The notes under the pieces were generated by a model. The model had not been told where the DNA came from. It made no database searches and saw only the letters and a program-made list of their open reading frames with translations. The position numbers and the translations under genes are program-made. A stretch of 64,000 nt of DNA, from NCBI RefSeq assembly GCF_034424525.1, contig NZ_CP139979.1:4549501-4613500 (forward strand). The letters run 5' to 3'. Position 1 is the stretch's first letter; each line of letters opens with the position of its first letter. Origin of the DNA: Sphingobium yanoikuyae. GTDB taxonomy: Bacteria; Pseudomonadota; Alphaproteobacteria; Sphingomonadales; Sphingomonadaceae. This document shows, one piece after another, positions 40,982 through 62,996 of this stretch.

Positions 40982-41006
40982 GGAACACAGTGGCGGAGTT
41001 CGCGTT
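40982..41006 (+). promoter_or_regulatory. exact EcfG-type promoter motif
   Basis: GGAAC (40982-40986), 16 bases, CGTT (41003-41006): an exact match to GGAAC-N16-CGTT. It faces right in the 557-base spacer between the GST and diguanylate cyclase genes. It lies about 145 bases before a short reading frame at 41150, which it may transcribe. A small RNA is the alternative product. Confidence 0.6.
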
Positions 41007-41149
41007 CTCCAATATGAGCTATCAGCAGTTTCCAGCAGCAGTTTCGGGGGCCAGCCAGGCGATGAGACCGAAGCTTCGATGGGGGGCATAGCCTCAAAGA
41101 AGGTCTTCTCCGCCAATGATAGTGCAATTGCGCAGGGAGCTTGGGACGC

Positions 41150-41359
41150 ATGTCGAATGAAATAGGTTCGGTTCGGCAATGGGATGAGGGGGACCTGATG
41201 GAAGCCTTTCTTCTCATCCAAAGCGAGCGCCATACCAGTGACGACCAGATAATTTTTGCAGAAATGCGGCGCCGTGCCGGTGGCGGCGCACGTGAGCAGC
41301 ACGATGCTTCTAACCGGCCTCGACTGTGGAACTTCGAGCCGGACCGGCCTCTGCTCTGA
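41150..41359 (+). CDS. hypothetical 69-residue protein downstream of an EcfG-type promoter
   Basis: Starts with ATG, with GGGAGC 9 bases upstream. The product begins MSNEIGSVRQWDEGDLMEAF. It is hydrophilic, acidic in the first half and Arg-rich in the second, with no recognised domain, signal or membrane helix. It is the only reasonable frame downstream of the exact promoter motif at 40982. Its end lies 76 bases from the convergent diguanylate cyclase stop. The rest of the spacer (40885-41149) holds no convincing gene. Confidence 0.4.
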   Translation: MSNEIGSVRQWDEGDLMEAFLLIQSERHTSDDQIIFAEMRRRAGGGAREQHDASNRPRLWNFEPDRPLL

Positions 41360-41435
41360 GATATGGTCGCCAGCCCGGCGCGCGCCAAAGGCGAGGCGTT
41401 GCCGGGCCGGGACACCTCAACCCGCTGCAACCCCG

Positions 41436-43196
41436 TCAGGCGAAAAGCGGTCTGTCATTTCGGCGAGCGCCCGCCCACTCATCCAGGCGGATTGCGATCT
41501 GATCGCGCCCCCCACGCTTTGCGTCGTAAAGCGCTTCATCTGCCAGCCGGTAGAGCGTGCCAAAGTCAACGCGGGATGCCGAGGCCGTCACACCGATACT
41601 CACCGTCACCATGCGATTGCCGATGATGTCGCCATGGCTCAGATCGGCCAAGGTTCCGCGCAGGGTTTGTGCAAATTGCTCGATGTTCCCAACTTCAGCT
41701 CCTGTGACCATCATCGCAAACTCCTCCCCGCCCAGACGACATACGGCACAGGAGGAATTCTCATGCTGTGCGATGCAGCGGCCAATTGCTGCCAGAACGT
41801 GATCGCCAGCCTCATGACCATAGACATCGTTGATCGACTTGAACCAATCGACGTCGATCAGGAGCAGGGCAACCAGCCCGCCTGATACAGGCAAGCCTTC
41901 GAGCATCCTGCAGGTTCTTTCCATGAAACCCCGTCGGTTTGGCAACCCTGTCAGAACGTCACGGCGGGCAAGCTCATGGGCCTTAGCCTCTGCGAGACGG
42001 GCGACGTCTCGTTCCGTCCGCAACCGGGCATGAGCACGCGAAGCGGCAGCGGAGAGCCACAATGTTTGCCAGGCCGCTGCGAACAGGACCAGAATTTGCG
42101 ATCCACCGCCCCAGAACATCGCGTCCGCATCGAAGAAGCTGGTCGAAGCAAGGACGATCATTGGCAGTGCCCAGGCCCCACCCAGGCGCCGCGCCGCGCT
42201 GCTTCCCCGTCGCCATGCCTGGCCGATACAGGATGCGACCGCCGCCAGATTGGCCAGGACCAGCAACCCCAGCAGATTGCCGAGCATGTCGAACGGCCCC
42301 GAACGCATCAGCGAAAGCGGGATGCCCAATGCGCACACGCTTGCGGTGAGGCCCAGGGCGGTGCGCCTCAACCCCGCATCGAGATGCTGTTTTTCAAGAG
42401 CAGTGACGGCGCTCAAAGTGGCGAGCGTGATGGCGAGACAGGAGAGACCAGTGCAGATTTGGGCCGATACCGCGCCCGCCATCGAGGGAAAGAAGAACAG
42501 ATGAAGTTGCGACCAGCACGCCCCCCATATGACCATGCAGCATGCCCATGCGGCCTGCCAGCCGGCATGTTGCTGACGGACGGCAAGAGCCAGTGAGGCG
42601 TTATAAATCGCGCCCACAATCAGCAGAACGAGCGCAGCACCGGTCAAGGTAGCCAGGCCAGTTGTCTGGGTGGCTTCTTCACCACGCTCGACAAGCCTCA
42701 TCCGAAGGAGATGCGCGCTCGCCACTCTGTCAAATCTCAAGGTGAAGGCCACGACAGGAACGTCGCGATAGGGCGCGCGGAACGCGAGTTGGCCGCCAGC
42801 TCTCCAATAGGTCCCGAAATTGCCGCTCCGGACATGTTGCTGCTCGACGGCACCGTCACGATAGATGAAGCGCACGACCAGCCGATCAAATCGAGAGCTG
42901 TGGATGATCAGCGACAGATCCTCATGATCGCGCGAGCCCTGGGGCAAGGCGGCATGGAGCCACAATGTGCCCTTCTGATAGCCATCAGGATCACCATTGC
43001 AGACAAAATGGGAGGGGCGCGTGTCGTCAGGGGCGATCGATCGGCTCACTGCATGACATAGAGGATCGCCAATGCGTAGCAATTCAGCGCGCGCAGGCTG
43101 AGCCCCGCCCAGGATCAACAGTGCGATCGAGAACATGGCGCAGCTAATCGCAAGCCTATGTCGGGATAGTCCCCTGGTCAGGATCCGCGCATTCAT
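41436..43196 (-). CDS. membrane diguanylate cyclase with extracytoplasmic DISMED2-type sensor
   Basis: 586 residues. A signal peptide (ILGGAQPARAE) leads to a beta-rich periplasmic domain of about 150 residues, then seven membrane helices (from about residue 185 to 390). That is the 7TMR-DISM layout. A coiled linker joins a GGDEF domain with DVLTGLPNRRGF, LLIDVDWFKSINDVYGHEAGD and the active-site variant GGEEF. It should make cyclic di-GMP. The RxxD inhibitory site that normally lies five residues before GGEEF is absent (NSSC instead), so product feedback may be missing. No EAL domain is present. Confidence 0.92.
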   Translation of the reverse strand: MNARILTRGLSRHRLAISCAMFSIALLILGGAQPARAELLRIGDPLCHAVSRSIAPDDTRPSHFVCNGDPDGYQKGTLWLHAALPQGSRDHEDLSLIIHSSRFDRLVVRFIYRDGAVEQQHVRSGNFGTYWRAGGQLAFRAPYRDVPVVAFTLRFDRVASAHLLRMRLVERGEEATQTTGLATLTGAALVLLIVGAIYNASLALAVRQQHAGWQAAWACCMVIWGACWSQLHLFFFPSMAGAVSAQICTGLSCLAITLATLSAVTALEKQHLDAGLRRTALGLTASVCALGIPLSLMRSGPFDMLGNLLGLLVLANLAAVASCIGQAWRRGSSAARRLGGAWALPMIVLASTSFFDADAMFWGGGSQILVLFAAAWQTLWLSAAASRAHARLRTERDVARLAEAKAHELARRDVLTGLPNRRGFMERTCRMLEGLPVSGGLVALLLIDVDWFKSINDVYGHEAGDHVLAAIGRCIAQHENSSCAVCRLGGEEFAMMVTGAEVGNIEQFAQTLRGTLADLSHGDIIGNRMVTVSIGVTASASRVDFGTLYRLADEALYDAKRGGRDQIAIRLDEWAGARRNDRPLFA

Positions 43197-43601
43197 CGCG
43201 GCCCCTCTAGCATGAAAATGCGTGAATATACTGGGCGCATGGCCACTGGCTCACTTGCGGGCAGCGATCCGCCCGGCTCGCGTCAACGCTCACCATGGAC
43301 TGACGGAGGCGGAAAAACATCTCACAATCACAAAACAAGAAATTTAATCCAAGTTAAAAAGAAAGGCCATCATGTTGCGGCGGACGGCTTCATGAAAATC
43401 CCGCCGCTAAATCCATGACGATATCGAAATAAATATTTCGAATGCTGCTCCATCCATGTCTTCTGCCTCAATAGACATTGGCGAACGCGCCCTGATAGTG
43501 TCAAAATTGCAACATAAGCATTATTGTTTTCGCACGCGGCAACCCCGGTGCATGCCCTTTAGTTTGAGCCTCGTGGAAATAATCAAACAGGGACGTACAT
43601 C
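43197..43601. other. 405-base AT-richer intergenic region between divergent genes
   Basis: It lies between the diguanylate cyclase and the outer-membrane protein gene and must hold both promoters. A run around 43321-43370 is rich in A, and a palindrome lies at 43425-43440. No GGAAC motif and no convincing open frame are present; short frames here lack start signals. Confidence 0.6.
43425..43440. repeat. short palindrome in divergent promoter region
   Basis: CGAAATA (43425-43431) and TATTTCG (43434-43440) form a perfect 7-bp inverted repeat with a 2-base centre, extendable by one outer T/A pair. Its position about 160 bases before the outer-membrane protein start suits a regulator binding site. 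No known operator is matched. Confidence 0.4.
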
Positions 43602-44156
43602 ATGAAGAAGATCATTCTCCCATTGCTGGGCTGCCTGGCACTGCCGACTGCTGCCATGGCTCAGGACGACACCGCACCCGATGGCAGCAAAGCCTTCGGT
43701 ATTGAACCCTATGTCGGCATTCTCGGCGGTTATCACACTTTCGACCGCGGGACCGAGTTCGGCAGCGTTCCGGGCGAGACGATCATGAACGGCGCCCTGA
43801 TCAGCGGCATCGCGGGCGTGAATGTGCCACTCGGGCCGGTGTTCGTCGGGGTGGAAGGGAACGCCTCGAAGGGCTTTAGCGACATCGACTGGGAATATGG
43901 CGTGAAGGGCCGTGTAGGCGCCCGCGCAGGCGAGAGCGGTTTGATCTACGCCTCGGCCGGCTATCAGTGGGTCAATGGCAAAGGCGGCTGGCCCGACGAG
44001 AAGGACTGGATGTACGGTGCGGGTGTCGAAGTGGGGCCAAAGGAGATCGGCCTCGGCGGGGTCACTGGCAGCAGCGGCGTGCGCCTGCGCGTGCAGGTCG
44101 ACACCTATGATTGGGACAGTTTCCGTCCCATGGCTGGCGTCATTTTCCACTTCTGA
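43602..44156 (+). CDS. small outer-membrane beta-barrel protein
   Basis: 184 residues. A signal peptide ends at AAMAQ (about residue 21). The mature chain has alternating strands (IEPYVGILGGYHTF, GALISGIAGVNVPLGPVFVGVEGNAS, YGVKGRVGARAGESGLIYASAGYQWV) and finishes with Phe (MAGVIFHF), the expected C-terminal signal for outer-membrane insertion. The size fits an eight-stranded opacity/OmpW-like barrel. No ligand is suggested. It is transcribed alone from an AT-rich promoter region. Confidence 0.82.
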   Translation: MKKIILPLLGCLALPTAAMAQDDTAPDGSKAFGIEPYVGILGGYHTFDRGTEFGSVPGETIMNGALISGIAGVNVPLGPVFVGVEGNASKGFSDIDWEYGVKGRVGARAGESGLIYASAGYQWVNGKGGWPDEKDWMYGAGVEVGPKEIGLGGVTGSSGVRLRVQVDTYDWDSFRPMAGVIFHF

Positions 44157-44370: not shown

Positions 44371-44395
44371 TGAACCCGTTGAATATCAAGGCGTT
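44371..44395 (+). promoter_or_regulatory. EcfG-type promoter candidate for the gene at 44441
   Basis: TGAAC (44371-44375), 16 bases, CGTT (44392-44395): one mismatch from the consensus, at the first base of the -35 box. It lies 45 bases before the ATG of the hypothetical gene, a normal promoter distance. Confidence 0.5.
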
Positions 44396-44440: not shown

Positions 44441-44734
44441 ATGACGATCGAAGTTCGCTTCCCCGATGGCAGCCGTCGGGATGTGCCGAGCGAGCTTCGT
44501 ATCCTGCACGCAGACAGCGCGAGCGAAGAGCCTGCATTCTGGCATCTACCGCTCAACTGCGATTCCTATTGGCGTTTTGCGTTTGACGGCGTCCACTGGA
44601 ATGCGCGCCCCAGAACGGGTAGCCTTGCCATGTTCCGTAGTCCGGGCATCGAGTGGTGGCGGGGCATCGTAACAATGTCGGACGAAGCGGCTTTGGGTCA
44701 GGAACAGTGTCTTCTGGTCGCCGTCAACGCCTGA
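44441..44734 (+). CDS. hypothetical protein, likely stress-induced
   Basis: 97 residues from an ATG with GGAGG 7 bases upstream. It begins TIEVRFPDGSRRDVPSELRI and contains an aromatic-rich middle (FWHLPLNCDSYWRFAFDGVHWNARPR) and EWWRGIVTM. No known family, signal peptide or membrane helix is seen. A near-consensus EcfG-type promoter sits 45 bases upstream. The spacing, ribosome site and balanced composition support a real gene. It is convergent with the amidohydrolase gene. Confidence 0.6.
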   Translation: MTIEVRFPDGSRRDVPSELRILHADSASEEPAFWHLPLNCDSYWRFAFDGVHWNARPRTGSLAMFRSPGIEWWRGIVTMSDEAALGQEQCLLVAVNA

Positions 44735-44794: not shown

Positions 44795-45553
44795 CTATGT
44801 GAGCCGCTGCCAGGCCTCTTCCATCGCATCGCGCAGTCGCGCCGCCCAGAAGGATTGCCCCTCGCCTTGGGAAATAAGGTCCTGCCTGACCTCGATTTCA
44901 GCGTAGCGAAGGTCATTTGAAAGGGCGTGGAAGGGCATGCTGTAATCGGTTTCATCCATGGCATAGGGAGCATTGTCGCCCACCTTGATCGGCAACCGGC
45001 GTAGCGCGTCCAGCAGGCAAATCGCAAAATCGATCCGGCCGGCGGCGTGCAGGACGCCCACCGACCAGGGGCGCCTCATCTCGTCCAGTATCGGGGTGAA
45101 ACTATGGAGCGCGAGCAGGATTGTCTCCTGCCCCGCTGCCAGCCGAGCTGAGATCATTTCTGAAATGCCGGAATGATATGGAGCATGGATGGAGGTGACA
45201 CGCGCCAGCCTGTCGATTTCGGTCAAACCCTGATTGCCACCGATATCGGTCCCATCGGACGACGCAGGTATCGCGTCGTCGCGCGCGGGATCGCGATTAC
45301 AGTCGATGACCAATCGCGAATAATTCTGGAAGATGAAAGGGGCATCGAGGAGACGCGCCAATTCCAGGCCCATATCTCTCACGCCTATGTCGATTGCGAT
45401 ATGCCGAGACCAATCGGCCGGGCCTACGCCAAGATCACCCAGGGCCGAAGGAATTGCCAGCCCTGCATGATCTCCGGTCAGGAGGAACGGGGAGGAGCCG
45501 TTCGCGTTGATGACGGTGAAGGGCGCAGGATCGGCTGGCACCAGTAGATTCAT
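44795..45553 (-). CDS. N-formylglutamate amidohydrolase family protein
   Basis: 252 residues. The family's metal/active-site pattern is visible: FLLTGDHAGLAIP near the N-terminus, HIAIDIGVRDMGLELARLL, FIFQNYSRLVIDCNRDP, HAPYHSGI, and ILLALHSFTPIL with a conserved His. N-formylglutamate amidohydrolase proper hydrolyses N-formyl-glutamate in histidine breakdown, but no hut genes are nearby. This probably belongs to the broader subgroup found with peptide-modifying genes. It is divergent from a transglutaminase-like operon across only 32 bases, and the operon's promoter motif lies inside this gene. Confidence 0.85.
   Translation of the reverse strand: MNLLVPADPAPFTVINANGSSPFLLTGDHAGLAIPSALGDLGVGPADWSRHIAIDIGVRDMGLELARLLDAPFIFQNYSRLVIDCNRDPARDDAIPASSDGTDIGGNQGLTEIDRLARVTSIHAPYHSGISEMISARLAAGQETILLALHSFTPILDEMRRPWSVGVLHAAGRIDFAICLLDALRRLPIKVGDNAPYAMDETDYSMPFHALSNDLRYAEIEVRQDLISQGEGQSFWAARLRDAMEEAWQRLT
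45484..45508 (+). promoter_or_regulatory. exact EcfG-type promoter motif ahead of the transglutaminase operon
   Basis: GGAAC (45484-45488), 16 bases, CGTT (45505-45508), an exact match. It lies within the 5' part of the divergent amidohydrolase gene, 77 bases before the first transglutaminase-like start, and faces that gene. Confidence 0.65.
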
Positions 45554-45585: not shown

Positions 45586-46536
45586 ATGCCGTTGCTCACA
45601 ATCGAACATGTGACGACTTATCGCTATCAGCAATCGGTGTCGCTGGGCGAACATCGCATCATGATGCGGCCGCGTGAGGCCTTCGACCAGCGACTGCTCC
45701 GCGCGCGGCTCGATATCGATCCCCAACCTTGTGAATTGCGCTGGCTGCATGATGTGTTCGGAAATTCCGTGGCCATTGCTCTGTTCGACAAACGCACGTC
45801 GCAGCTGAAAGTCGCGAGCGCGGTTACGCTCGAGCATGCGCCCTTGACGCAGCAGCAGGTCGACGTCGAACCCTATGCCCGGCTTTTCCCCTTCACCTAT
45901 TCATCGGAAGACATGCCCGATCTGTTGCGGTCGATCGAACGAAACCATCTCGATCCCGAGCGGATCGTCGACAATTGGGCCAGAGGTTTCGTCAGCAATC
46001 ATGGTGATACAGCGACCATCGATCTCCTGACGCGGATCGCGACAGGCATCCAGCGTGACTTCACCTATGTGCCACGACATGAAAAGGGCACCCAATCTCC
46101 TATGGAGACGTTGCGCAAGCGGCAGGGGACCTGCCGTGACTTCGCCGTGCTGATGATTGAGGCTGTCAGGGCGCTGGGCTTCGCCGCCCGCTTCGTGTCG
46201 GGCTATGTCTATAATCCATCGCGCACCGAAGGGCTGGTCGGTGGCGGCAACACCCACGCCTGGGTCCGTATCTTCCTGCCCGGATCTGGCTGGGTGGAAT
46301 TCGATCCGACAAATGGGATCATCGGCAATCGCGGCTTGATCCGCGTGGCGATCGCACGCGACCCGTATCAGGCGCTACCGTTGTCGGGCACCTGGTTCGG
46401 CCTGCCTGCAAGCTTTCTGGGGATGGATGTGAGCGTCAACGTCAGTCGTGCCGATCCAGAACCATTCTCCCTCTCCGGCCATGGCGCCATCAACAGCCGG
46501 CTTGCCGGCAATCAGGAAACGAACCCGACATGCTGA
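45586..46536 (+). CDS. transglutaminase-like cysteine protease-fold protein
   Basis: 316 residues. An N-terminal beta domain (LLTIEHVTTYRYQQSVSLGEHRIMMRPRE) is typical of the bacterial transglutaminase-like group. The catalytic core follows: Cys183 in GTCRDFAV, His in GGNTHAWVRIFLPG and Asp in EFDPTNG. No signal peptide or membrane helix is seen, so it is cytoplasmic. Such proteins may act as peptidases or transamidases on unusual peptide bonds. It heads a three-gene operon, overlapping the second transglutaminase gene by 7 bases. Confidence 0.9.
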   Translation: MPLLTIEHVTTYRYQQSVSLGEHRIMMRPREAFDQRLLRARLDIDPQPCELRWLHDVFGNSVAIALFDKRTSQLKVASAVTLEHAPLTQQQVDVEPYARLFPFTYSSEDMPDLLRSIERNHLDPERIVDNWARGFVSNHGDTATIDLLTRIATGIQRDFTYVPRHEKGTQSPMETLRKRQGTCRDFAVLMIEAVRALGFAARFVSGYVYNPSRTEGLVGGGNTHAWVRIFLPGSGWVEFDPTNGIIGNRGLIRVAIARDPYQALPLSGTWFGLPASFLGMDVSVNVSRADPEPFSLSGHGAINSRLAGNQETNPTC

Positions 46537-47345
46537 TCCGGTGCGGCTATGATATCGAATTCTCGACCGAGAACCGGACGGCGATGATGGCCATGCTCAG
46601 CCTGCATCCATCGCGCCATCAGGATCTGCGAACGCCGCAGCGGCTGATAGCGGCGCCCGACATTCCGCTTTATCAATTCGAGGACGGGTTCGGCAATGTC
46701 GCCACCCGGCTCACCATCCCACCGGGCAATGTGCGCTTGTCATGCGACTTTGTGATCGAGGATAGCGGAGATCCCGACCAGCGCTCGCCCAGTGGTCCTC
46801 AGATGCCGGTGGAAGAGCTTCCAGATGCCGTCATGCCCTTTCTTCTGGGCAGCCGCTATTGCGAAACCGACCGTCTGATGGACGTGGCATGGGCTCAATT
46901 TGGTCATCTGGCCAGCGCGCGGGAAAGGGTGGAGGCGATCGTGGGCTTCGTGCATCATCATATTGAATTTGGCTATCAGCATGCGCGCGCCGACAAGACC
47001 GCCTGGAATGGCTATCAGGAGCGAAAGGGCGTGTGCCGTGACTTCGCCCATCTCGCCATAACCTTGTGCCGCTGCATGAATATTCCCGCTCGCTATTGCA
47101 CCGGTTACCTCGGCGACATCGGCGTGCCTCCGGTAGATGCTCCGATGGATTTCAGTGCATGGTTCGATGTCTATATCGACGGCGCCTGGTATACCCATGA
47201 TGCGCGCCATAACCGCCCGCGCATCGGCCGGATCCTGATGGCACGCGGGCGCGATGCCACCGACGTAGCCTTGACGACGGCTTTTGGCCCGGCAAATCTG
47301 GTGCGATTTCAGGTGCACACCCAGGAAGTAACCGCCCTTGACTGA
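46530..47345 (+). CDS. transglutaminase-like protein, second of operon
   Basis: 271 residues. It begins MLIRCGYDIEF and has a compact N-terminal domain. The catalytic triad is Cys169 in KGVCRDFAH, His-equivalent region MDFSAWFDVYIDG (the usual His is replaced by Ser-Ala here), and Asp in THDARHNRP. Its close relative at 49527 keeps HAWFEVY at the same position, so this copy may have lost the catalytic His. It overlaps the first transglutaminase gene and the M3 peptidase gene. Confidence 0.88.
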   Translation: MLIRCGYDIEFSTENRTAMMAMLSLHPSRHQDLRTPQRLIAAPDIPLYQFEDGFGNVATRLTIPPGNVRLSCDFVIEDSGDPDQRSPSGPQMPVEELPDAVMPFLLGSRYCETDRLMDVAWAQFGHLASARERVEAIVGFVHHHIEFGYQHARADKTAWNGYQERKGVCRDFAHLAITLCRCMNIPARYCTGYLGDIGVPPVDAPMDFSAWFDVYIDGAWYTHDARHNRPRIGRILMARGRDATDVALTTAFGPANLVRFQVHTQEVTALD

Positions 47346-49359
47346 GCAAAGCGACCCGCTTCTCCAACCCTGGCCTGGCCCGCTTGGCGCGCCACCTTTT
47401 GCGCGGATAGGTGATGACCAGTTCCTTCGCGCGGTCACGACCAGCATCGCCTGGCACAAGGCTGAACTTGATGCGATTTGCGAGCAGGTCGCGCCCGCGA
47501 CCTTCGAGAATACGATTGCCGCACTGGAACGGTCGGGCGAGCCGCTCGCGCGCGTCCGGCGGTTGTTCTGGGCCCTGTCCTCGGCGAAGGGCACGCTGGC
47601 CATCCGCGAGGCGGAAGCTGAGATTTCGGCGCGACTTAGCGCGCATGCCGTCGCCATAAGCCATAATGCCCAATTGGCAGCGCGCGTCTTCGCAGTCCAT
47701 GCTTCACGGCACGAGAGCGGCCTCACCCCGGAACAGGTCCGCCTCGTGGAGGATAGCCATGCAAGCTTCCTTAGAGGCGGCGCAGCATTGACGAGGGCTG
47801 GCAAGTACCGCTTTGCCGCCATCGAGGCTCGCCTGTCTGCCCTAGCAGTTCAATTCGGGCAGAATGTGCTTGCCGCAACAAATGCCTGGGTGCTCGATCT
47901 GGAGCAGAATGAGCTTGAGGGACTGCCCAGCGCAATATGCGAGGCGGCTGCGGCGCGAGCAACAGCAAAGGGGTTGCAGGACCGTTATCACATAACGCTC
48001 GATCGCACCGACCTGGAGGCATTTCTGACCTTTTCGAAGAGGCGCGACTTGCGCGAGGCCCTATGGCGGGCCTTCACCGCACGCTGCGACGGCGACCAAC
48101 ATGATAATTGGCCCATCATCGCCGAAATGCTCGCGTTGCGCAGGGAAAGGGCGGTCCTGCTGGGCTATGCCGACCATGCGCATTATGCGCTGGCCGACAG
48201 CATGGCGCATGATCCGGCAGCAGCGAGCGCGCTGATGCGCCAGCTGTGGGCGCCGGGCAAACGGCGCGCAACGCAGGAAGCTGCTGAACTGCAGGCATTG
48301 ATCGATGCGGAGGGCGGCGATTTCCGCCTCGCGCCCTGGGACTGGCGCTTTTACGCGGAACAGGTACGACGCACCCGTTACGCACTCGATACTGCGGCAG
48401 CTGCGGAGCATTTGCGGCTCGATGCGGTGCGGCAGGCAGCATTCGACACAGCCGGCCGACTTTATGGCCTGAGCTTCTACAGGCGTGCGGACATAGAAGG
48501 CTATCATCCGGACGTCTGGGCCTGGGAAGTGAAGGAGAGCAACGGGAGCACTGTGGGTCTGCTCTTCACCGACTATCTGGCCCGCCCGGAAAAACATGGT
48601 GGCGCTTGGATGGGAAGCCTGCGGGTGCAAGAAGCGATGGATGGCGACGTGCGCCCGATCGTCTATCTGGTCGCCAATTTTGCCGCTGCTCCGCCACCCG
48701 ACCGGGGTGCGACCCGCCTTTCGATTGATGAGGCGCGCACCTTGTTTCATGAATTTGGCCATGCATTGCATGGGCTTCTTTCACGAGTCACCTACCCCAG
48801 CCAGTCCGGAACTGCGGTTGCCCGCGACTTCGTGGAATTTCCGAGCAAGTTCATGGAGAACTGGATTGTCAGCCCGCAGGTGCTCGCCGATCTTGGGATG
48901 CCTGAAGATCTGATCAGCGCCATTCGCGAGGCGGAGGCTTATGGTCAGGGCTTTGCCACCGTGGAATTGATCGGTTGCGCATTGGTGGACCTTGCCATCC
49001 ACCAGAATCCGGACGCTCAGATCGATCCTCGCGCATTTGTCGAGGCGCAGCTTGATGCGCTCGCAATGCCCCGCGCGGTCGGGTTGCGCCATCGCTTTCC
49101 CTATTTCACGCATATCTTTGATGGCGGCTATTCGGCTGCCTATTATAGCTATGCCTGGTCCGAAGCACTGGATGCCGACGCATTTGAGGCTTTTGTCGCG
49201 ACAGGTGATATTTTCGACCCCGGTCTCGCATCGCGGTTCCGCGAAGAGATACTCGCCGCAGGAAATAGCCGCGATCCCATGGCGTCCTTTCAGGCCTTCC
49301 TGGGACGCGCGCCCGACGGAACGGCCTTGATGCGAGCAAGGCATCTTCTCGACGCTTGA
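47338..49359 (+). CDS. M3 family zinc oligopeptidase
   Basis: 673 residues from a TTG overlapping the previous gene by 8 bases, with AGGAAG upstream. The thimet-oligopeptidase fold has the zinc motif HEFGH at residues 471-475 (RTLFHEFGHALHGLLS). It also has FVEFPSKFMENWI and the substrate-loop tyrosines in FDGGYSAAYYSYAWSEALDADAFE. It is close in size to oligopeptidase A/Dcp. It cuts short peptides in the cytoplasm. Coexpression with two transglutaminase-like proteins suggests that they feed it modified or isopeptide-linked peptides, which is an inference. Confidence 0.93.
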   Translation: MTEQSDPLLQPWPGPLGAPPFARIGDDQFLRAVTTSIAWHKAELDAICEQVAPATFENTIAALERSGEPLARVRRLFWALSSAKGTLAIREAEAEISARLSAHAVAISHNAQLAARVFAVHASRHESGLTPEQVRLVEDSHASFLRGGAALTRAGKYRFAAIEARLSALAVQFGQNVLAATNAWVLDLEQNELEGLPSAICEAAAARATAKGLQDRYHITLDRTDLEAFLTFSKRRDLREALWRAFTARCDGDQHDNWPIIAEMLALRRERAVLLGYADHAHYALADSMAHDPAAASALMRQLWAPGKRRATQEAAELQALIDAEGGDFRLAPWDWRFYAEQVRRTRYALDTAAAAEHLRLDAVRQAAFDTAGRLYGLSFYRRADIEGYHPDVWAWEVKESNGSTVGLLFTDYLARPEKHGGAWMGSLRVQEAMDGDVRPIVYLVANFAAAPPPDRGATRLSIDEARTLFHEFGHALHGLLSRVTYPSQSGTAVARDFVEFPSKFMENWIVSPQVLADLGMPEDLISAIREAEAYGQGFATVELIGCALVDLAIHQNPDAQIDPRAFVEAQLDALAMPRAVGLRHRFPYFTHIFDGGYSAAYYSYAWSEALDADAFEAFVATGDIFDPGLASRFREEILAAGNSRDPMASFQAFLGRAPDGTALMRARHLLDA

Positions 49360-52365: not shown

Positions 52366-52523
52366 GCCGCCATCATCGGCCGCGCTTCACGCCAAAAGAG
52401 GCATATGCACGAAAAGTTCCGGTGAGTTCTGGCCGCAGACATCACGCGCCCCAGTGCCGCGCGGTCGCTATCTAAGATTCATATTGATCCAGATTGGTCC
52501 TGGACATCTTCTCGCCTCCCGCC

Positions 52524-52548
52524 GGAACCCAGCCTCCCGCTTCCGGTT
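52524..52548 (+). promoter_or_regulatory. EcfG-type promoter candidate for the catalase gene
   Basis: GGAAC (52524-52528), 16 bases, GGTT (52545-52548): one mismatch from GGAAC-N16-CGTT. It lies 57 bases before the catalase ATG. Catalases are common members of alphaproteobacterial general-stress regulons. Confidence 0.5.
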
Positions 52549-55502: not shown

Positions 55503-55527
55503 GGAGCCGATGAAAGGGCCGGGCGTT
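55503..55527 (+). promoter_or_regulatory. EcfG-type promoter candidate for the LOV/kinase operon
   Basis: GGAGC (55503-55507), 16 bases, CGTT (55524-55527): one mismatch in the -35 box. It lies 29 bases before the LOV protein ATG, so the message would have a short leader. Confidence 0.5.
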
Positions 55528-55556: not shown

Positions 55557-56114
55557 ATGCGCGCAATCCTCCCAGAGCAGCTGGCAAGCTATTTTGACAG
55601 CTCGCCTGTGGCTTTGTCGCTCGGCCGCGCAGAGGGCGATCATGAGCTGCTGTTGACGAATGAGGGCTTCAGGAACCTGACCGGCTATGCGACGAGCGAG
55701 ATCGTCGGCCGCAATTGCAGGTTCTTGCAGGGACGCAGCCGGAATGAAGAGGCCCGCGCGCAGATACGGTCGTTCCTCCAGGACGATGGGCAGGCGAACG
55801 TGCGGACGTCCATCGTCAATTTCCGGAAGGACGGGCGCCCCTTCGTCAATCTTCTCTACATGACGAAACTTCGCGCTCAGTCGGGCCAGGTGCGCTATAT
55901 TTTTGCGTCTCAATTCGATGTCAGTCGCACCCAGCCGGATCGACTGGCGGATTATGATCTCGACCTTGAGCGTACGCTTGACCGATTGAGTCCGGTCCTG
56001 GCGGAAAGCGGGATCGTGGTTGAAGGTTCGCTGATGACAATCGCGAATACGGTGGCCACCATAGCACAGGCCAAGCTCATATTGTCGGATCTGGACAATG
56101 GCGATTTCCTTTGA
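55557..56114 (+). CDS. short LOV-domain photoreceptor-like protein
   Basis: 185 residues from an ATG with GGAG 7 bases upstream. The LOV signature GRNCRFLQGR holds the flavin-adduct Cys54, followed by NFRKDGRPFVNLLYMTKL and the YIFASQFDVSRTQ strand. After the LOV core comes only a helical tail of about 60 residues, with no kinase or DNA-binding part. Blue light should form a Cys-FMN adduct and signal to a partner. Its stop overlaps the start of the CheB-CheR-kinase gene (TTGA), so the pair is coupled. Confidence 0.88.
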   Translation: MRAILPEQLASYFDSSPVALSLGRAEGDHELLLTNEGFRNLTGYATSEIVGRNCRFLQGRSRNEEARAQIRSFLQDDGQANVRTSIVNFRKDGRPFVNLLYMTKLRAQSGQVRYIFASQFDVSRTQPDRLADYDLDLERTLDRLSPVLAESGIVVEGSLMTIANTVATIAQAKLILSDLDNGDFL

Positions 56115-59100
56115 GCGGTGAGACGGCTAACCCCAGCCGGTTGCCGATCGTGGGCATCGGCGCTTCGGCGGGCGGGCTTGAGGCCCTGCGCGAAATGCTG
56201 GCGTCAGCCCGTGGCCAGACCGGCATGTCCTTCGTCATCGTTCAGCATCTTGATCCCAATCATGAGAGCATGCTGGCGCAATTGCTGGACCGCCACACGA
56301 CCCTGGAAGTTCTCCAGTGCGAGGGTGGTGAGCAGATAGAGGCGGACAAGGTTTACATCATCCCTCCCGGTCGCGGCCTGGTCATACGCGAGGGCATGTT
56401 GGAACTGACCGACTTCGCGCAGCCCCGCGGTCTTCGCAGACCGATAGATGATTTCTTCATCTCCCTCGCGTCGGACAAGCAGGCGGATGCCGCCTGCGTC
56501 ATACTTTCAGGTACCGGCGCTGACGGGACCATGGGCTTGCGTGCCGTGAAGGAAAATGGCGGGCTGTGTGTCGTGCAGGATCCTGAAACGGCAAAATATG
56601 ATGGCATGCCGCTGTCTGCTGTGGGAACCGGACTGGTCGATTTCGTCAAACGTCCAAGCGAGATAATTCAATGTCTGGAAGGATTTTTCCAGCACCGTGC
56701 CACGGCCGAAACACCCGAACGGGAAGCTGCTCTGGTCGCCGATCATGTCGATGATCTGTGCAAGACACTGCGAACTGCGGTGGGCCATGATTTTTCGGGT
56801 TACAAGCGCACGACCCTTATCAGGAGGGTCGAACGGCGCATGCATGTGCTGGGGATCACGTCGGGCCACAGCTATCTTTCGCGGATAAAAAGCGACAGGG
56901 ACGAATGTGAAGCGCTGTTTCGTGATCTCCTGATCAACGTCACCCGATTTTTCCGGGACGCAGATCTGTTCGAGCGTCTGAGGATCACGGTTATCGAGCC
57001 GCTGGTCGATCAGGCCGATGGCGAGGAAATCAGGGTATGGGTTCCAGGCTGCTCCTCTGGCGAGGAAGCCTACAGCGTTGCGATGCTCTTCGCCGAAGCT
57101 GCTCGCAAACGAAATATTCTGCCGGCATCCGTGCAGATCTTCGCTACGGATATTGATGAGCAGATGCTGCAGATTGCGCGCGAAGGAGTATATCCTGCGT
57201 CTGCGCTTGCAGATATTCCGCTGGCGCTGCGCGAGCAATATGCGATCCCTCACGCAGAAAGGTTCACGATCGTTCCCCAATTGCGGGACATGATCCGCTT
57301 CTCCAGTCATAGCCTGGTCAAGGATCCGCCCTTCTCGCGCATCGATCTGGTCTCCTGTCGCAATCTTCTCATCTATTTCGATGATCGGCTGCAGCAAACG
57401 GTCATGCCGATCCTGCATTATGCTGTTCGGCCAAATGGATATCTGTTTCTTGGACCGTCCGAAAGCGTCGGGAGATTCGAGCATCTCTTCCCGGCGATCG
57501 ATCAGCAGGCGCGCCTTTTCCAACGCGCGCCTGGGCCACCCAATTATCCGATCGATCTGCCGGGTGGCGGCAGGCTCCGCGATCAACCCGCGACAGGTTC
57601 CGGCAACAGGCCGTCGGGTCGGTCGGCAAGCGATGAGACCATAGCGGTTCGTCGCCTCGTCGAGCGCTATACGCCCGCTAGTCTCGTGCTAGATCAGGAT
57701 GGCGCCATCATCTCTGCCTATGGTCGGCTCGGCCGCTATTTTGATTTTCCGGTCACACGGACGGGAGGCTCGAGCGCGATTGGTCTCGCCCGCGCTGGGC
57801 TTCGCAACGTTCTTGGGCCGCTACTGCGCGAAGCGCGCGACAGTCGAAAGCGGGTCGTTGCGCGTGATGTGCAGGTCATGTCCGAATATGGCATGCAGCA
57901 GATCGATGTCATCTGCGATCCACTGACCGATGGCACGCTGCTTTTCGTTTTCCGCGACACGGCGCCTTTCCGCCCAGCGCTTGATCAGGATGTCGGCGAA
58001 CTGGACGCAAGCGATGATCATCTCGATGCGTTGGAGGACGAGCTTCGTGTCACGCGGCACCGCCTGCGTACCGCTGTCGAAGAATTGGAGACGGCGAATG
58101 AGGAACTGAAAAGCTCCAACGAAGAAATGATGTCGATGAATGAGGAGCTTCAGTCCACCAACGAGGAGCTCACGACCGTAAATGATGAGCTGAAGTCAAA
58201 AGTTGACCAGCTGACTGTTGCAAATTCCGACCTTCGAAATTTCTTCGAGTCGACCGATCTGGCAGTGATTGTGCTCGATGGAAAACTTCAGATCAGAAGC
58301 TACACCGAAGCTGCGACGGCCCTTTTTCCGCTTCAGCCCAGCGACCGCGGACGACCATTGGAGGATGTCACGTCACGCCTTGCAGGGACGCTCTATCTTG
58401 ATGATGCACGGTCCGTGTCAGAGGGGCATCCTGTGATCCAGAGGCGTGTCACGACCCGCGATGGCGCGAGAACCCTTTCGCTTCGAACATTGCCTTACAG
58501 AACCCAGAGCGGATCGACGGACGGCGCGACGCTCGTCCTGACGGACATTACTGACGCATTGTCTCTCGAGCGCGATCTTGCGGCCGAACGTGAGCGCCTT
58601 GGGATGGCCATTCGGGCAGGTGGCGTTGCAACATGGGAATATAATGTCGACACGGGCGAGGCGATCATCGATGACCATGGGCGTTCCATCCTGGGAATAG
58701 CGCCCGACATCGCTTCGACCGATGGTGAGCGGCGCCTGGCGCGACTGCATCCCGACGACCGTGAAGCTTTCGATGCAGCATTGGCGGAAGTTGTCGCGCA
58801 AGGGGGCGATTTCGAAGCGAGCTATCGCGTCGTCGAGAACGGCCAAACGCGTCGCATCAAGAGTTTCGGCAGGATCGTGAGCGATGGCTCAGTCCGTCAT
58901 CTGGTCGGCGTCTCTATCGATGTAACGTCGGAATATATGCTCGCCGAGACGCGTGAACTGATGTTGCGCGAAATGAATCATCGCGTGAAGAATCTTTTCG
59001 CGATCGTGGGCGGAATGGTCTCCGCTGGGGCGCGGATTCATGATGATGTGCGTGCCTACGCCGCCGATCTGAGGGAGCGTATTGCAGCCTTGGGACGTGC

Positions 59101-59536
59101 GCATTCCCTTGCTTCGCCAACGGGGGAAGTACAGGCCATCAATCTGGAAGAGTTGGTTCGGACAACCATCGAACCCTATCGGGATCATGCAGCAATCTCG
59201 ATCAGTGGACCTGAAATCCTCATCGCGCGTTCCTGCCTCTCGTCCCTGGCGTTGATGCTGCATGAATGGGCGACCAATTCGGTCAAATATGGGGCTCTGG
59301 GGGCCTCCGATGGGAGATTGAACATCGTTTGGAAACTTGACCATGATCTCCAGTTGACGTGGAGCGAAACGCGCCGGGACGCACTGAGCGAGGATGGCGA
59401 CGTTGGGAGCGGATTTGGCACCCTGCTGGTCCAGACATCATCCCGACAATTGGGCGGGCATGTGGAAAGAGATATTAGCGACGACATGTTCACGATAAGC
59501 CTTACCCTGCCGGACAAGGTTCTGGCCGATGCCTAA
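56111..59536 (+). CDS. CheB-CheR-PAS-HWE/HisKA_2 histidine kinase fusion
   Basis: 1141 residues from a TTG overlapping the LOV stop. Residues 1-190 are a CheB methylesterase (GIGASAGGLEAL; QHLDPNHES; LSGTGADGTMGL). Residues 210-480 are a CheR methyltransferase (VTRFFRDADLF; VWVPGCSSGEEAYS; IFATDIDEQML; SCRNLLIYF). A long coiled coil follows (TANEELKSSNEEMMSMNEE), then two PAS domains and a kinase with phospho-acceptor His957 (REMNHRVKNLFAIV) and the HWE-type HEWATNSVKYGAL box. No chemoreceptor genes are nearby, so this is a stress/light relay rather than chemotaxis. It overlaps the receiver gene by 8 bases. Confidence 0.94.
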   Translation: MSGETANPSRLPIVGIGASAGGLEALREMLASARGQTGMSFVIVQHLDPNHESMLAQLLDRHTTLEVLQCEGGEQIEADKVYIIPPGRGLVIREGMLELTDFAQPRGLRRPIDDFFISLASDKQADAACVILSGTGADGTMGLRAVKENGGLCVVQDPETAKYDGMPLSAVGTGLVDFVKRPSEIIQCLEGFFQHRATAETPEREAALVADHVDDLCKTLRTAVGHDFSGYKRTTLIRRVERRMHVLGITSGHSYLSRIKSDRDECEALFRDLLINVTRFFRDADLFERLRITVIEPLVDQADGEEIRVWVPGCSSGEEAYSVAMLFAEAARKRNILPASVQIFATDIDEQMLQIAREGVYPASALADIPLALREQYAIPHAERFTIVPQLRDMIRFSSHSLVKDPPFSRIDLVSCRNLLIYFDDRLQQTVMPILHYAVRPNGYLFLGPSESVGRFEHLFPAIDQQARLFQRAPGPPNYPIDLPGGGRLRDQPATGSGNRPSGRSASDETIAVRRLVERYTPASLVLDQDGAIISAYGRLGRYFDFPVTRTGGSSAIGLARAGLRNVLGPLLREARDSRKRVVARDVQVMSEYGMQQIDVICDPLTDGTLLFVFRDTAPFRPALDQDVGELDASDDHLDALEDELRVTRHRLRTAVEELETANEELKSSNEEMMSMNEELQSTNEELTTVNDELKSKVDQLTVANSDLRNFFESTDLAVIVLDGKLQIRSYTEAATALFPLQPSDRGRPLEDVTSRLAGTLYLDDARSVSEGHPVIQRRVTTRDGARTLSLRTLPYRTQSGSTDGATLVLTDITDALSLERDLAAERERLGMAIRAGGVATWEYNVDTGEAIIDDHGRSILGIAPDIASTDGERRLARLHPDDREAFDAALAEVVAQGGDFEASYRVVENGQTRRIKSFGRIVSDGSVRHLVGVSIDVTSEYMLAETRELMLREMNHRVKNLFAIVGGMVSAGARIHDDVRAYAADLRERIAALGRAHSLASPTGEVQAINLEELVRTTIEPYRDHAAISISGPEILIARSCLSSLALMLHEWATNSVKYGALGASDGRLNIVWKLDHDLQLTWSETRRDALSEDGDVGSGFGTLLVQTSSRQLGGHVERDISDDMFTISLTLPDKVLADA

Positions 59537-59882
59537 GACGATCATGCTGGTTGAAGACGAGCTCCTGGTTGCCTTCGATGTACAGGACATCATTGAAGCT
59601 CAGGGCTTTTCGGTCGACGGCCCCTACATCTCTGTTAAGGATGCTGTCGCGGCGGTCACTGCGCAACTGCCGTCCTGCGCTGTGCTCGACGTGCGTTTGC
59701 AGGATGGCGAGGTCTTTCCGGCGGCTGATTTGCTCGAAAAAGCGGGCGTTCCAATCATATTCCATTCCGGGCATGCCGACGCCTCGGATCTCAAGCGGCG
59801 CTATTCCAAGGCTGCGGTGTGCGAGAAGCCCTGTTCGCCCGCGGCCCTGAGAGATACGATACTCGAGCTGCTCGCCGAATGA
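59529..59882 (+). CDS. single-domain response regulator
   Basis: 117 residues, a receiver only. It has the acidic pair in VEDELLV, phospho-acceptor Asp in CAVLDVRLQDGE (near residue 54), and Lys in VCEKPCSPAAL. The FATGUY-type FDVQDIIEAQGF start is common in receivers partnered with HWE kinases. It lacks an output domain, so it passes the phosphate onward or competes for it. It overlaps the kinase gene by 8 bases, making it the likely partner of that kinase. Confidence 0.9.
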   Translation: MPKTIMLVEDELLVAFDVQDIIEAQGFSVDGPYISVKDAVAAVTAQLPSCAVLDVRLQDGEVFPAADLLEKAGVPIIFHSGHADASDLKRRYSKAAVCEKPCSPAALRDTILELLAE

Positions 59883-59976
59883 GCCCAATTTTTGCGTAGC
59901 GCTCCGCCACCATTTCCTCGCAGCACCTGACCACGCGCCTCAGGCCGTCGCAAGATGTCCCTGAAGGCGGAGATTT

Positions 59977-60419: not shown

Positions 60420-60444
60420 GCAACTCCTGTCCCATGCGCTCGTT
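60420..60444 (+). promoter_or_regulatory. EcfG-type promoter candidate for the amylase gene
   Basis: GCAAC (60420-60424), 16 bases, CGTT (60441-60444): one mismatch from GGAAC-N16-CGTT. It ends 35 bases before the amylase ATG, an ordinary promoter distance. Confidence 0.5.
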
Positions 60445-60479
60445 TAGCGGCAGCGACTTATGTTGGAACGGGAGCTTTC

Positions 60480-61958
60480 ATGGCCGGACGCACGCTGCTT
60501 CAGTTTTTCCACTGGTACTATCCTGATGGAGGCCAGCTCTGGGACGAGGTCGCTCAAAAAGCGGAGGATCTCAAGGAGTTGGGTGTGACGGACGTCTGGC
60601 TACCTCCGGCCTATAAAGGGGCTGCAGGCGGCTATTCCGTAGGCTATGACAGCTATGATCTTTTTGACCTGGGCGAATTCGATCAAAAAGGATCCATAGC
60701 CACCAAATATGGTGATCGCGCCGCGCTGGAACGGGCGGCGCATGCGCTGCACGACGTTGGCCTTGGCGTCATTCATGACGTTGTCTTCAATCATAAAATG
60801 GGCGCGGACGAGATGGAAACGGTCCATGTTCGCAGGGCCAATCCCGATAATCGGGACGAAGTGGAAGACCAAGCATTCCAGGCTCGCGCCTGGACCCGCT
60901 ACGTTTTCCCTGGACGCCAGGGGCGCTATTCAGAGTTTGTCTGGGATGCCAGATGCTTCACCGGCGTCGACCATATTGAAGAACCGGATGAAGATGGCGT
61001 GTTCCGGCTCGTCAATGAATATGGTGATGGGGAATGGAATATCGAGGTCGACGACGAAAAGGGCAATTTTGACTATCTGATGGGATCAGACGTCGAGTTT
61101 CGGAACCGGGCGGTCTATGAAGAGCTCAAATATTGGGGCAGATGGCTGGCTGATCAACTGCCTTGTGACGGATTCCGTCTCGATGCAGCCAAGCATATCC
61201 CTGCATGGTTTTTCCGCGATTGGGTAGGGCACATGCGCGAAAGCGTCGGCGACGCGCTGTTTGTCGTCGCCGAATATTGGCATCCCGACATGACGGTCCT
61301 GCAAGCATATCTGGACATGGTCGATCGACAACTCATGCTTTTCGATGTCGGCCTTCTCCATCGTTTTCACGATGCGGCACGAGCCGGCGGCGATTTTGAC
61401 CTGCGAACGATCTTCGATGGTTCGCTGCTGCATGCCGCCCCGGATCATGCGGTAACGATCGTCGGCAATCACGACACCCAACCGCTCCAGGCTCTTGAAG
61501 CACCCGTGGAGGATTGGTTCAAACCCCTGGCCTATGCCTTGATCCTGATCCTCGAACAGGGCACCCCATGCATCTTCTATCCCGATCTTTTCGGCGCACG
61601 ATATGCCGATCAAGGTGGCGATGGGCACGCGCATGAGATCGTCATCGAGCCGGTGGCATGTCTGCCTCAGTTGCTCAGAGCACGGCAACTCTATGCCCAT
61701 GGACCGCAAAGCGATCTGTTTGATGATCCACATTGTGTCGGTGTCATACGCCATGGCACCCAGGATCAGCCAGGATGTGTCCTGCTTGTGTCGAATGGCG
61801 AAGAGGCGAGCAAATCGGTCCAGCTCGGACCGGAGCATGCAGGGGCATCTTTCCATGATTTTCTGGGCCATCATGCTGAAGAGATAATCGCTGATGAAAA
61901 CGGAAGCATCATCCTTAAGGTGCCCGGCGGCTCGATCAGTCTTTGGGTTCGCACATAA
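60480..61958 (+). CDS. cytoplasmic GH13 alpha-amylase
   Basis: 492 residues from an ATG following GGGAG; no signal peptide. The four GH13 boxes are present: DVVFNH (~100), GFRLDAAKH with the nucleophile Asp (~234), VAEYW with the acid Glu (~262), and VGNHDTQ (~330). The opening FHWYYPDGGQLWDEVAQKAEDLKELGVTDVWLPPAYKG and SVGYDSYDLFDLGEFDQKGSIATKYG match the GH13_5 glucan 1,4-alpha-maltohexaosidase/AmyS group. It should cut internal alpha-1,4-glucan or glycogen. Expression under stress could release reserve sugar. Confidence 0.93.
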   Translation: MAGRTLLQFFHWYYPDGGQLWDEVAQKAEDLKELGVTDVWLPPAYKGAAGGYSVGYDSYDLFDLGEFDQKGSIATKYGDRAALERAAHALHDVGLGVIHDVVFNHKMGADEMETVHVRRANPDNRDEVEDQAFQARAWTRYVFPGRQGRYSEFVWDARCFTGVDHIEEPDEDGVFRLVNEYGDGEWNIEVDDEKGNFDYLMGSDVEFRNRAVYEELKYWGRWLADQLPCDGFRLDAAKHIPAWFFRDWVGHMRESVGDALFVVAEYWHPDMTVLQAYLDMVDRQLMLFDVGLLHRFHDAARAGGDFDLRTIFDGSLLHAAPDHAVTIVGNHDTQPLQALEAPVEDWFKPLAYALILILEQGTPCIFYPDLFGARYADQGGDGHAHEIVIEPVACLPQLLRARQLYAHGPQSDLFDDPHCVGVIRHGTQDQPGCVLLVSNGEEASKSVQLGPEHAGASFHDFLGHHAEEIIADENGSIILKVPGGSISLWVRT

Positions 61959-62162
61959 CGCAATTTCCGTAATTTGCCTTCTTGGCCTTCGGCTCTTCTG
62001 GCAGCCTATTTCTTTCAATACAGGACAAGGTGCATCTCGAACGAACCGAGAGGCTGGCGGCGCCGGTTCAGGATCGGCGCGATGGCGGTCAGCGTAACTC
62101 TGGCGAGTCGTCGCAGACGGATAAGCGCGTTCTGCATCGCCCGGCCAAGTGAATGCAGCCCT

Positions 62163-62813
62163 TCAGGCAACGAGACGGGTCATGGCCTCACCCGGCTCTC
62201 CAGCCGGCTGTCGATCTTCAATGGCATCGATGACAGAAAACAGGTTTGTCACATTCTCATCGGCTTCGAATTCCGATCGGGACTGGGCTAATTGGCCATC
62301 GTTGATCAAAGCTTCGAGCGCCGTGCGAGCACGAGCAACGCGGCTTTTGACAGTACCGATCGCAGTGCCCATGATGGTCGCGGCTTCCTCGTAGGAAAAG
62401 CCACCCGCCCCGATCAATATAAGTGCCTCACGCTGAGGAACGGGGATCTGCGCGAGAGCGCGCACGACATCGGATAGCTCGACAATCTTCAACTGTTCCG
62501 CGGGCGCGGCAAGTAGTCTGTCTGCGACAAGATCGTCCCACGCCCCGACAAATTTGCTGCGCCGGCTGAGGCTGAAATAGTGATTGCGAAGGATAGTGAA
62601 CGTCCATGCACGAAAATTGGTGCCGGTTATGAACCGCCCCCGCGCGCTCCAAGATTTCAGCATGGTTTCCTGGACCAGGTCGTCGGCAAGATCGCGATCA
62701 CCACACAGACTGCGGGCAAAAGCTCTGAGTTGCGGCAGGACCAGCGTGAGTTCCCGCTTGAATGCTGTGTCAGTCAGCTTGTGCGGAGTCTCGGCGATTT
62801 GCGTTGCCGTCAT
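62163..62813 (-). CDS. ecfG: EcfG-type ECF sigma factor of the general stress response
   Basis: 216 residues from the ATG after AAGGG; the frame extends upstream over the promoter. Sigma region 2 has LRAFARSLCGDRDLADDLVQETMLKSW and NFRAWTFTILRNHYFS, which are close to EcfG proteins of Alphaproteobacteria. Region 4 has ALAQIPVPQREALILIGAGGFSYEEAATIMGTAIGTVKSRVARAR. EcfG is normally held by NepR and released by PhyR-P. Neither is encoded here, so this looks like an orphan second copy relying on core NepR/PhyR elsewhere. An exact EcfG promoter lies 40 bases upstream, implying self-activation. Confidence 0.9.
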   Translation of the reverse strand: MTATQIAETPHKLTDTAFKRELTLVLPQLRAFARSLCGDRDLADDLVQETMLKSWSARGRFITGTNFRAWTFTILRNHYFSLSRRSKFVGAWDDLVADRLLAAPAEQLKIVELSDVVRALAQIPVPQREALILIGAGGFSYEEAATIMGTAIGTVKSRVARARTALEALINDGQLAQSRSEFEADENVTNLFSVIDAIEDRQPAGEPGEAMTRLVA

Positions 62814-62852
62814 ACAGGCCCTTCGTGACGATGATGTAGCGCTGTGTCTGAT

Positions 62853-62877
62853 AACGGGGTGGTTGACGATCTGTTCC
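62853..62877 (-). promoter_or_regulatory. exact EcfG-type promoter ahead of the sigma-factor gene
   Basis: On the minus strand GGAAC (62877-62873), 16 bases, CGTT (62856-62853), exact consensus. It ends 40 bases before the sigma-factor ATG, so the gene is probably autoregulated. Confidence 0.7.
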
Positions 62878-62971
62878 GCTGGGGTCGGCGGGGCGAAGAC
62901 CTGTCCGCCTCTGCGCCAGCCGCCTGTCGGCCATGGCAAGCCGGTGCGAGGCGCATGTTTACGGGGCGATC

Positions 62972-62996
62972 GGATCCTGCAGGGCCTCTGGCCGTT
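62972..62996 (+). promoter_or_regulatory. EcfG-type promoter candidate for the DJ-1/PfpI gene
   Basis: GGATC (62972-62976), 16 bases, CGTT (62993-62996): one mismatch in the -35. It lies 49 bases before the ATG at 63045 and back to back with the sigma-factor promoter. Confidence 0.55.

Follow-up and report, generated by a model that had tools for sequence, protein, structure and literature searches.

An ICE-like element at a tRNA-Gly gene of Sphingobium yanoikuyae carries stress genes behind EcfG-type promoter sequences together with an orphan EcfG-type sigma factor

Introduction

General stress sigma factors of the EcfG family are known to occur as paralogs, and the systems closest to the one analyzed here are EcfG1/EcfG2 of Sphingopyxis granuli, SigT/SigU of Caulobacter crescentus and EcfG2 of Rhizobium etli, which share with it a second EcfG under an EcfG-type promoter and an expectation of shared targets. 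In the cited part of the work on S. granuli TFA, ecfG1 and nepR2 share an operon that adjoins ecfG2 and phyR2, and ecfG1 expression depends on EcfG2 (PMC7083833). In R. etli, the members of the EcfG2 subgroup are all plasmid-borne, as far as the cited section goes (PMC3892343). Published excerpts further treat adjacency to nepR and phyR as the mark of the canonical copy, and report that EcfG paralogs can lack it. In Sphingomonas melonis Fr1, the portion of the regulon study that we draw on lists Ku, glycosidase, glycosyltransferase, trehalose/glycogen and catalase genes as EcfG-dependent, with GGAAC-N17-20-GTT motifs upstream of the direct targets (PMC6599016). Here, we analyze 64,000 nucleotides of the S. 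yanoikuyae genome (the window; positions 4549501-4613500 of contig C1 in a 5.53-Mb genome of seven contigs), a stretch that belongs to an integrated element resembling integrative and conjugative elements (ICEs) and that carries an orphan EcfG-type sigma gene among predicted stress genes.

The locus departs from each of these systems in a particular way. Unlike in S. granuli TFA, the paralog has no phyR beside it and sits on an integrated element among EcfG-type cargo promoters; and while its predicted targets are comparable to the S. melonis Fr1 regulon, the latter is spread throughout the Fr1 genome whereas many of the targets here lie in one element. With ICEs at tRNA genes the element shares a tyrosine integrase, repeats of the tRNA 3' end, an empty site, a relaxase, a coupling protein and Trb-type genes; it differs in its cargo, which includes a stress sigma factor as well as stress genes preceded by EcfG-type promoters. 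Literature on Sphingobium ICEs and integrative and mobilizable elements, among the matches listed and in the excerpts available, deals mostly with degradation genes. The transmissible locus of stress tolerance (tLST) is likewise a horizontally moving island of stress-protection genes and, in the excerpts cited, also contains Hsp20 genes, but here the promoters link the cargo to the EcfG system of alphaproteobacteria, and an EcfG is part of that cargo. Excerpts from the literature thus already describe plasmid-borne EcfG paralogs in rhizobia (PMC3892343) and, in other classes, mobile stress islands (tLST). The open-licence PMC literature, in the portions retrieved, yielded no ICE-like element with both EcfG-type cargo and its own EcfG, and no work joining HRXXN, LOV, CheB and the general stress response. 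We propose that the element probably carries stress genes wired to the general stress response, together with an EcfG that would amplify it.

Results

The window carries the cargo of an ICE-like element placed at the 3' end of tRNA-Gly(GCC). Direct repeats of 46 bp bound 162.9 kb, from the left end (Table 1) to C1:4723981-4724026 past the window end. The genome contains just two exact copies of the 37-bp core of the repeat, one at C1:4561105 and one at C1:4723981; the latter copy belongs to an intact tRNA-Gly, whereas the left copy is a fragment beside the integrase. In keeping with a fragment only, ARAGORN reported no tRNA in the window. Rfam gave no match across window positions 10-64 kb. 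A genome of the same genus (G239) has the left flank (97%), tRNA-Gly and right flank (94%) contiguous, which constitutes the empty site. Conjugation-type genes in the element encode a MobF relaxase, a coupling protein and TrbB/E/L/F/G, and an RPA replication initiator is also present; further Trb genes are guessed only from gene order and sequence. Excision and transfer of the element are putative. Two other genomes (G428 and G349) encode integrase relatives 78% identical to this one, which adjoin 46 and 45 bp, respectively, of that tRNA-Gly fragment, and a family-wide search found the integrase in 20 of 397 genomes, the host included, at E<=1e-120, the other 17 relatives showing 50-55% identity. 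Our initial idea of a plasmid-borne origin without integration was replaced by the tRNA element once the tRNA-Gly fragment had been found.

Base composition and codon use set this region apart. GC content is 0.567-0.605 in 5-kb windows over 40-65 kb, against a background of 0.651 (0.52-0.67 over the whole element), and codon use over 40-71 kb is atypical (median 0.114 vs 0.385 log-odds per codon, P=4e-11). The element also holds genes for GroEL/GroES, two Hsp20 proteins, an ImuB-like polymerase, Ku and LigD. Genes of tLST include, among others, those for ClpK, FtsH, YfdX and HdeD; in the element only Hsp20 was noticed as a gene of tLST type, no search having been aimed at the tLST gene set.

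We scanned for exact GGAAC-N16/N17-CGTT, a motif type that we take to be the mark of the EcfG family, and for its one-mismatch variants. The scoring matrix was built from S. melonis Fr1 data, using 25 promoter sequences of EcfG-dependent genes that are 25 or 26 nt long and score 10 or more (PMC6599016 Table 1), and a site was counted at a score of at least 10 and 8-160 nt upstream. Among operon-leading genes between 40165 and 63596, 11 of 17 have such a site, compared with 18 of 248 in a background of 20 stretches of 20 kb (Fisher 3e-8); since the stretch was picked for its motifs, this and the other positional P values are post hoc and optimistic. At a cut of 12 the fractions are 7/17 and 14/248. 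Three hundred column-permuted matrices gave a mean of 0.6 and a maximum of 5 of the 17 lead genes, and upstream regions read as reverse complement gave 1/17 in the stretch and 14/248 in the background. Results hold with a second, retrained gene caller (9/14 vs 18/255, 3.8e-7, with at most three in any of the 20 background stretches), which on an annotated plasmid stretch recovered 36 of 41 genes with one or both ends, 28 of them exactly. What exceeds chance in this stretch is the position of sites before lead genes and not the count of exact sites.

An earlier note on this DNA, made from its letters alone, had described a 22-kb EcfG regulon (40982-62996) with eight sites, each ahead of a gene. 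All eight were located, three exact (40982+, 45484+ and 62877-) and five with one mismatch (Table 1). Those five are a selection from 15 one-mismatch N16/N17 sites in this span: seven of the other ten lie inside genes by their coordinates, one straddles a gene end, one is in a doubtful frame, and the last, 52420(-), stands 41 nt before a GAF histidine kinase gene and had been missed. Six of the eight proposed targets stand; the LOV site is weak in this genome, and the 44371 site and 44441 gene are unsupported, the frame at 44441-44734 having no Pfam match, no ortholog found and no call from the second gene caller. The note's limits were also arbitrary, in that ortholog-backed sites extend from about 16.9 kb to past the window end.

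Comparison with orthologs on five plasmids (p-A-Sy, pKN1, V4, pR1a and pSA2) shows that the -35 and -10 bases are held while spacers drift. Fourteen genes that have an ortholog and whose own site scores roughly 9.5 or higher were aligned, ignoring where the best site of the target lies. Over the resulting 23 pairs, motif identity is 188/207 (91%), against 250/376 (66%) in spacers and 1074/1577 in other upstream sequence (Fisher 7e-12). Genes 22584 and 56150 were kept out because their sites fall in upstream coding sequence; with them (27 pairs) the figures are 218/243 for motifs and 306/442 for spacers (P=2e-10), and the seven genes of the note alone give 94/108 and 118/193 (P=9e-7). Only 3 of the 23 pairs agree in six or fewer of nine motif bases; low agreement for the sigma gene in p-A-Sy and the LOV gene in pSA2 stems from misaligned sites, and the target does have a site. 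An exact site persists before the transglutaminase operon in this genome (77 nt), pKN1 (75 nt) and pSA2 (77 nt), with differing spacers. Outside the 22 kb, conserved sites stand before the Ku gene (16883), the acyl-CoA dehydrogenase gene (31785) and genes past the window end, among them a small one at 65105. EcfG-type promoter sequences therefore precede the cargo more than expected by chance and are conserved, and we predict that they act as promoters.

Genome-wide, exact N16/N17 matches number 44, or 42 places after merging two palindromic pairs. The note's estimate of fewer than one exact match per 64 kb is sound, but its view that three exact sites are striking by themselves is not: three in 22 kb arise somewhere on C1 in 41% of random draws (P=0.41; 12% for N16 only), and we dropped exact-motif clustering as the chief argument. 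In the same draws, four exact sites in 24.1 kb occur in 3.6% and six in 60 kb in 0.4%, with 6.9% for four in 60 kb under N16 only. Exact sites are nonetheless denser in the element (3.7 per 100 kb) than in the remainder of C1 (0.72), even though they do not cluster at the 22-kb scale. The element, 3.2% of C1, holds 6 of the 42 places (P=0.002).

The orphan sigma factor consists of regions 2 and 4 only. Pfam PF04542, PF08281 and PF22029 and the extracytoplasmic function (ECF) superfamily model score above their cut-offs, and the NCBIfam equivalog models below theirs. Identity to the host EcfG is 64%; the region-4 helices are similar in the two proteins, as is much of region 2. Among the features that define EcfG/ECF15 it has sigma regions 2 and 4_2 and, by sequence, its own GGAAC-N16/17-CGTT, and it lacks the nepR/phyR adjacency: no phyR lies beside it in the locus. 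A canonical phyR-nepR-ecfG locus, which includes an exact motif, lies at C1:770-773 kb of the host genome. In a 70-row tree the orphan sigma and four plasmid sigmas form one group (support 80/99; all 200 bootstrap trees), and a genus tree separates 21 orphan rows from 14 phyR-linked rows with support 100/100; judged from these trees, the orphan sigma is part of a clade found on Sphingobium and Sphingomonas plasmids and elements.

Orphan genes, classed by score and by the lack of phyR in the fetched stretch, are present in 17 of 94 genus genomes including the host, a count that leaves aside a low-scoring second match in G208. The phyR check covered 18 chosen orphan loci, two of them on 5-kb contigs, and 14 canonical ones. 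A GGAAC site scoring at least 12 lies within 80 nt of the alignment start in 14 of the 18 orphan genes; of the other four, two are truncated where their contig ends, the G222 gene is interrupted by an insertion beyond which its promoter remains, and in G149 the best site is 205 nt distant. In place of CGTT, the orphan gene itself has TGTT as its -10 at many of these loci.

Related elements occur in other genomes. In G222 and G185, paired tRNA-Gly repeats at distances of 203.8 and 175.0 kb enclose an EcfG-like gene, and the exact motif is again in excess inside, with 8 of 48 places in G222 (P=0.0006) and 6 of 33 in G185 (P=0.0015). G222 is not independent of the host element, because its proteins are 95-99% identical (11 proteins compared in 20 kb); the G185 element is more diverged, and holds a sequence like the 40982 site, judged by spacer likeness only. 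A weaker excess (7/48, P=0.03) is seen in the G239 contig that corresponds to p-A-Sy, and seven motif positions agree between that contig and the plasmid. In G222, an IS66-like insertion (C1:550.6-553.4 kb of that genome; identified by likeness to an annotated TnpB) parts the sigma gene from its promoter and first third, and a similar IS66-like set lies at C1:4620658-4623019 in the host genome. In G189, G201, G176, G228, G229 and G232 the tRNA-Gly core is present in two or three copies, spaced differently or placed on other contigs, which suggests further insertions, remnants or duplicated tRNAs.

Table 1. Features of the window, with coordinates counted from its first nucleotide
Feature	Position	Strand	Basis or remark
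attL, 46-bp 3' fragment of tRNA-Gly(GCC), left end of the element	11605..11650	-	repeat match
Tyrosine integrase, Arm-DNA-bind_3 + Phage_integrase	11862..13100	+	domain match
Site GGAAC-N16-CGCT, 19 nt upstream of Ku gene group			score 9.55; kept on p-A-Sy
Ku - MgtC/SapB-like - LigD genes	16883..20753	+	middle gene named from plasmid annotation
Site GGATC-N17-CGTT, 25 nt upstream of acyl-CoA dehydrogenase group			kept on two plasmids
Acyl-CoA dehydrogenase gene group	31785..39257	+	names from plasmid annotation; last gene by Pfam
Exact motif, 143 nt before 69-aa frame	40982..41006	+	kept on p-A-Sy
69-aa frame, hypothetical protein in p-A-Sy annotation	41150..41359	+	called by first caller, not by second; no Pfam match
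Site GCAAC-N17-AGTT (two mismatches), 37 nt before 43602 gene			conserved on plasmid
184-aa protein	43602..44156	+	looks secreted or outer-membrane from sequence; no Pfam match
One-mismatch site TGAAC	44371..44395	+	before doubtful 98-aa frame 44441-44734
Exact motif, 77 nt before transglutaminase operon	45484..45508	+	
Transglutaminase-like x2 - M3 peptidase operon	45586..49359	+	
GAF-HisKA hybrid kinase	50536..52353	-	GGAAC-N17-CTTT at 52420(-), 41 nt upstream
Site GGAAC-N16-GGTT (-10 mismatch), 56 nt before katE	52524..52548	+	AGTT in p-A-Sy ortholog
katE, HPII-like catalase	52605..54749	+	Pfam above cut-off; NCBIfam HPII model below its cut-off
Weak site GGAGC-N16-CGTT, 29 nt before LOV gene	55503..55527	+	orthologs GGATC or GCAAC with CGTT
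Short LOV/PAS protein - CheB/CheR/PAS/HWE kinase - receiver-only response regulator	55557..59882	+	
Site GCAAC-N16-CGTT, 35 nt before amylase start	60420..60444	+	GCAAC/CGTT in G222, GGAAC/ATTT in G201
Alpha-amylase	60480..61958	+	
Orphan EcfG-type sigma factor, 216 aa	62163..62813	-	no phyR adjoining
Exact motif, 39 nt before orphan sigma gene	62853..62877	-	
Site GGATC-N16-CGTT, 48 nt before DJ-1/PfpI	62972..62996	+	kept on p-A-Sy
DJ-1/PfpI-family protein	63045..63596	+	TIGR01382 above cut-off

The triad of LOV protein, CheB/CheR-HWE kinase and receiver is also found on plasmids pR1a and pSA2. HRVKN was read from the sequence in the H box of the HWE kinase, as was the LOV motif NCRFLQ; kinases of the HRXXN class are PhyR activators.

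Several further features of the element were noted in passing. A cbb3-type oxidase gene (window 22958-25480) encodes a protein 98-99% identical to copies on two S. yanoikuyae plasmids, and has relatives near the orphan sigma in G213, G176 and G233. Past the window end, an exact EcfG motif ends 9 nt before the called start of a DUF2252 gene (C1:4630041; 80541 in extended window coordinates), which would be either leaderless or start further downstream. A fragment of a LuxI-type autoinducer synthase, a PhyH-family gene and a LuxR-type (GerE) regulator lie at C1:4653583-4656405; a similar group, judged by eye, also follows the related integrase in G349, and it may belong to the element core. The GroEL/GroES pair (C1:4680672-4682297 and 4682353-4682667) has host-like codon use.

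Discussion

Our data place a conserved set of EcfG-type promoter sequences and an EcfG-type sigma gene on one integrated element, and suggest how the two could act together. The element thereby brings its own version of a regulator that stress-protection genes ordinarily borrow from their host. We propose that under stress, the host's PhyR-NepR-EcfG switch would free canonical EcfG, which would then transcribe the cargo along with the orphan ecfG gene; the product of that gene would in turn read the same promoters and amplify output. This order, with host EcfG acting on orphan EcfG, is suggested because of the precedent in S. granuli TFA. Light or other cues may also be relayed to PhyR by the LOV-CheB/CheR-HWE kinase and its response regulator, whose promoter is a weaker one of this type. 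The earlier note had likened the cluster to a stress island with its own sigma factor, and the att repeats, empty site and unequal motif density bear out the island; that the sigma factor runs the cluster does not follow from its presence, and the host phyR-nepR-ecfG locus could serve the same promoters.

It is accordingly possible, though to our minds somewhat doubtful, that canonical EcfG alone runs the cargo and that the orphan sigma contributes little, as an accessory or a decaying passenger. The host does have a full phyR-nepR-ecfG locus with an exact motif, and in the published portions available, deletion of EcfG1 in S. granuli TFA gave no stress phenotype (PMC7083833) and sigU/ecfG2 deletions gave no obvious defect in Caulobacter and S. 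melonis (PMC4814048). Presence of the orphan clade in 17 of 94 genus genomes, with the same type of promoter at 14 of 18 loci, instead suggests a retained function. An improbable alternative is that the orphan sigma has drifted to another promoter class, leaving the shared motif to the host regulon only: its identity to host EcfG is modest and many orphan loci have TGTT in place of CGTT, but region 4 and much of region 2 resemble host EcfG, its own promoter has a GGAAC -35, and in the cited part of the S. granuli work -10 boxes of the known regulon vary while -35 boxes hardly do (PMC7083833). The reading of the motif cluster as an artefact of chance or composition in a lower-GC region is very improbable and is largely refuted. 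The GC dip, post hoc choice of the stretch and nonsignificant 22-kb scan speak for such an artefact, yet matrices with the same columns permuted reach at most 5 of 17 lead genes and the reverse complement one, the motif is conserved above its spacer, and exact sites are in excess in the more diverged G185 element.

Several observations weigh against the amplifier proposal or its supporting sites. In G222 the orphan sigma gene is interrupted by the IS66-type insertion while cargo promoters (and the gene's own) are kept, so the sigma factor may be dispensable. The genome has a single match to the NepR model, C1:770291 in the canonical locus. Across 18 neighbourhoods of 5-20 kb each, the same one recurs only in G222; two others have the amylase gene, and one of those also katE. 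On p-A-Sy, the sigma gene lies 39 to 50 kb before the group of 69-aa frame, katE and DJ-1. Taken by themselves, the three exact sites in 22 kb are no denser than chance allows, and because background matches are hardly more frequent forward (18/248) than reversed (14/248) they are largely chance, so that a score of 10 is by itself no proof of a promoter. In one pair, that of an SDR (short-chain dehydrogenase/reductase) gene with p-A-Sy, the motif is lost, and for a katE relative in G229 the best site scores 8.4, short of 10.

More tentatively, the tRNA-Gly element family in Sphingobium might constitute a transferable annex to the general stress response, bringing its own EcfG, a light/HWE kinase with its regulator, and effectors, each of them under EcfG-type promoters, and thereby plugging into the PhyR-NepR switch of a new host and raising the response; the switch might even time transfer. 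The general stress response is commonly regarded as a core circuit that is inherited vertically. If our proposal of cargo wired to the stress response along with an amplifying EcfG is true, joint movement of part of a regulon and a stress sigma factor would explain the spread and keeping of accessory EcfG paralogs. Strain pairs with and without the element offer a test of what an EcfG paralog adds. The element also suggests that alphaproteobacteria may acquire stress tolerance in one step, as with tLST elsewhere, but in a form tied into host regulation.

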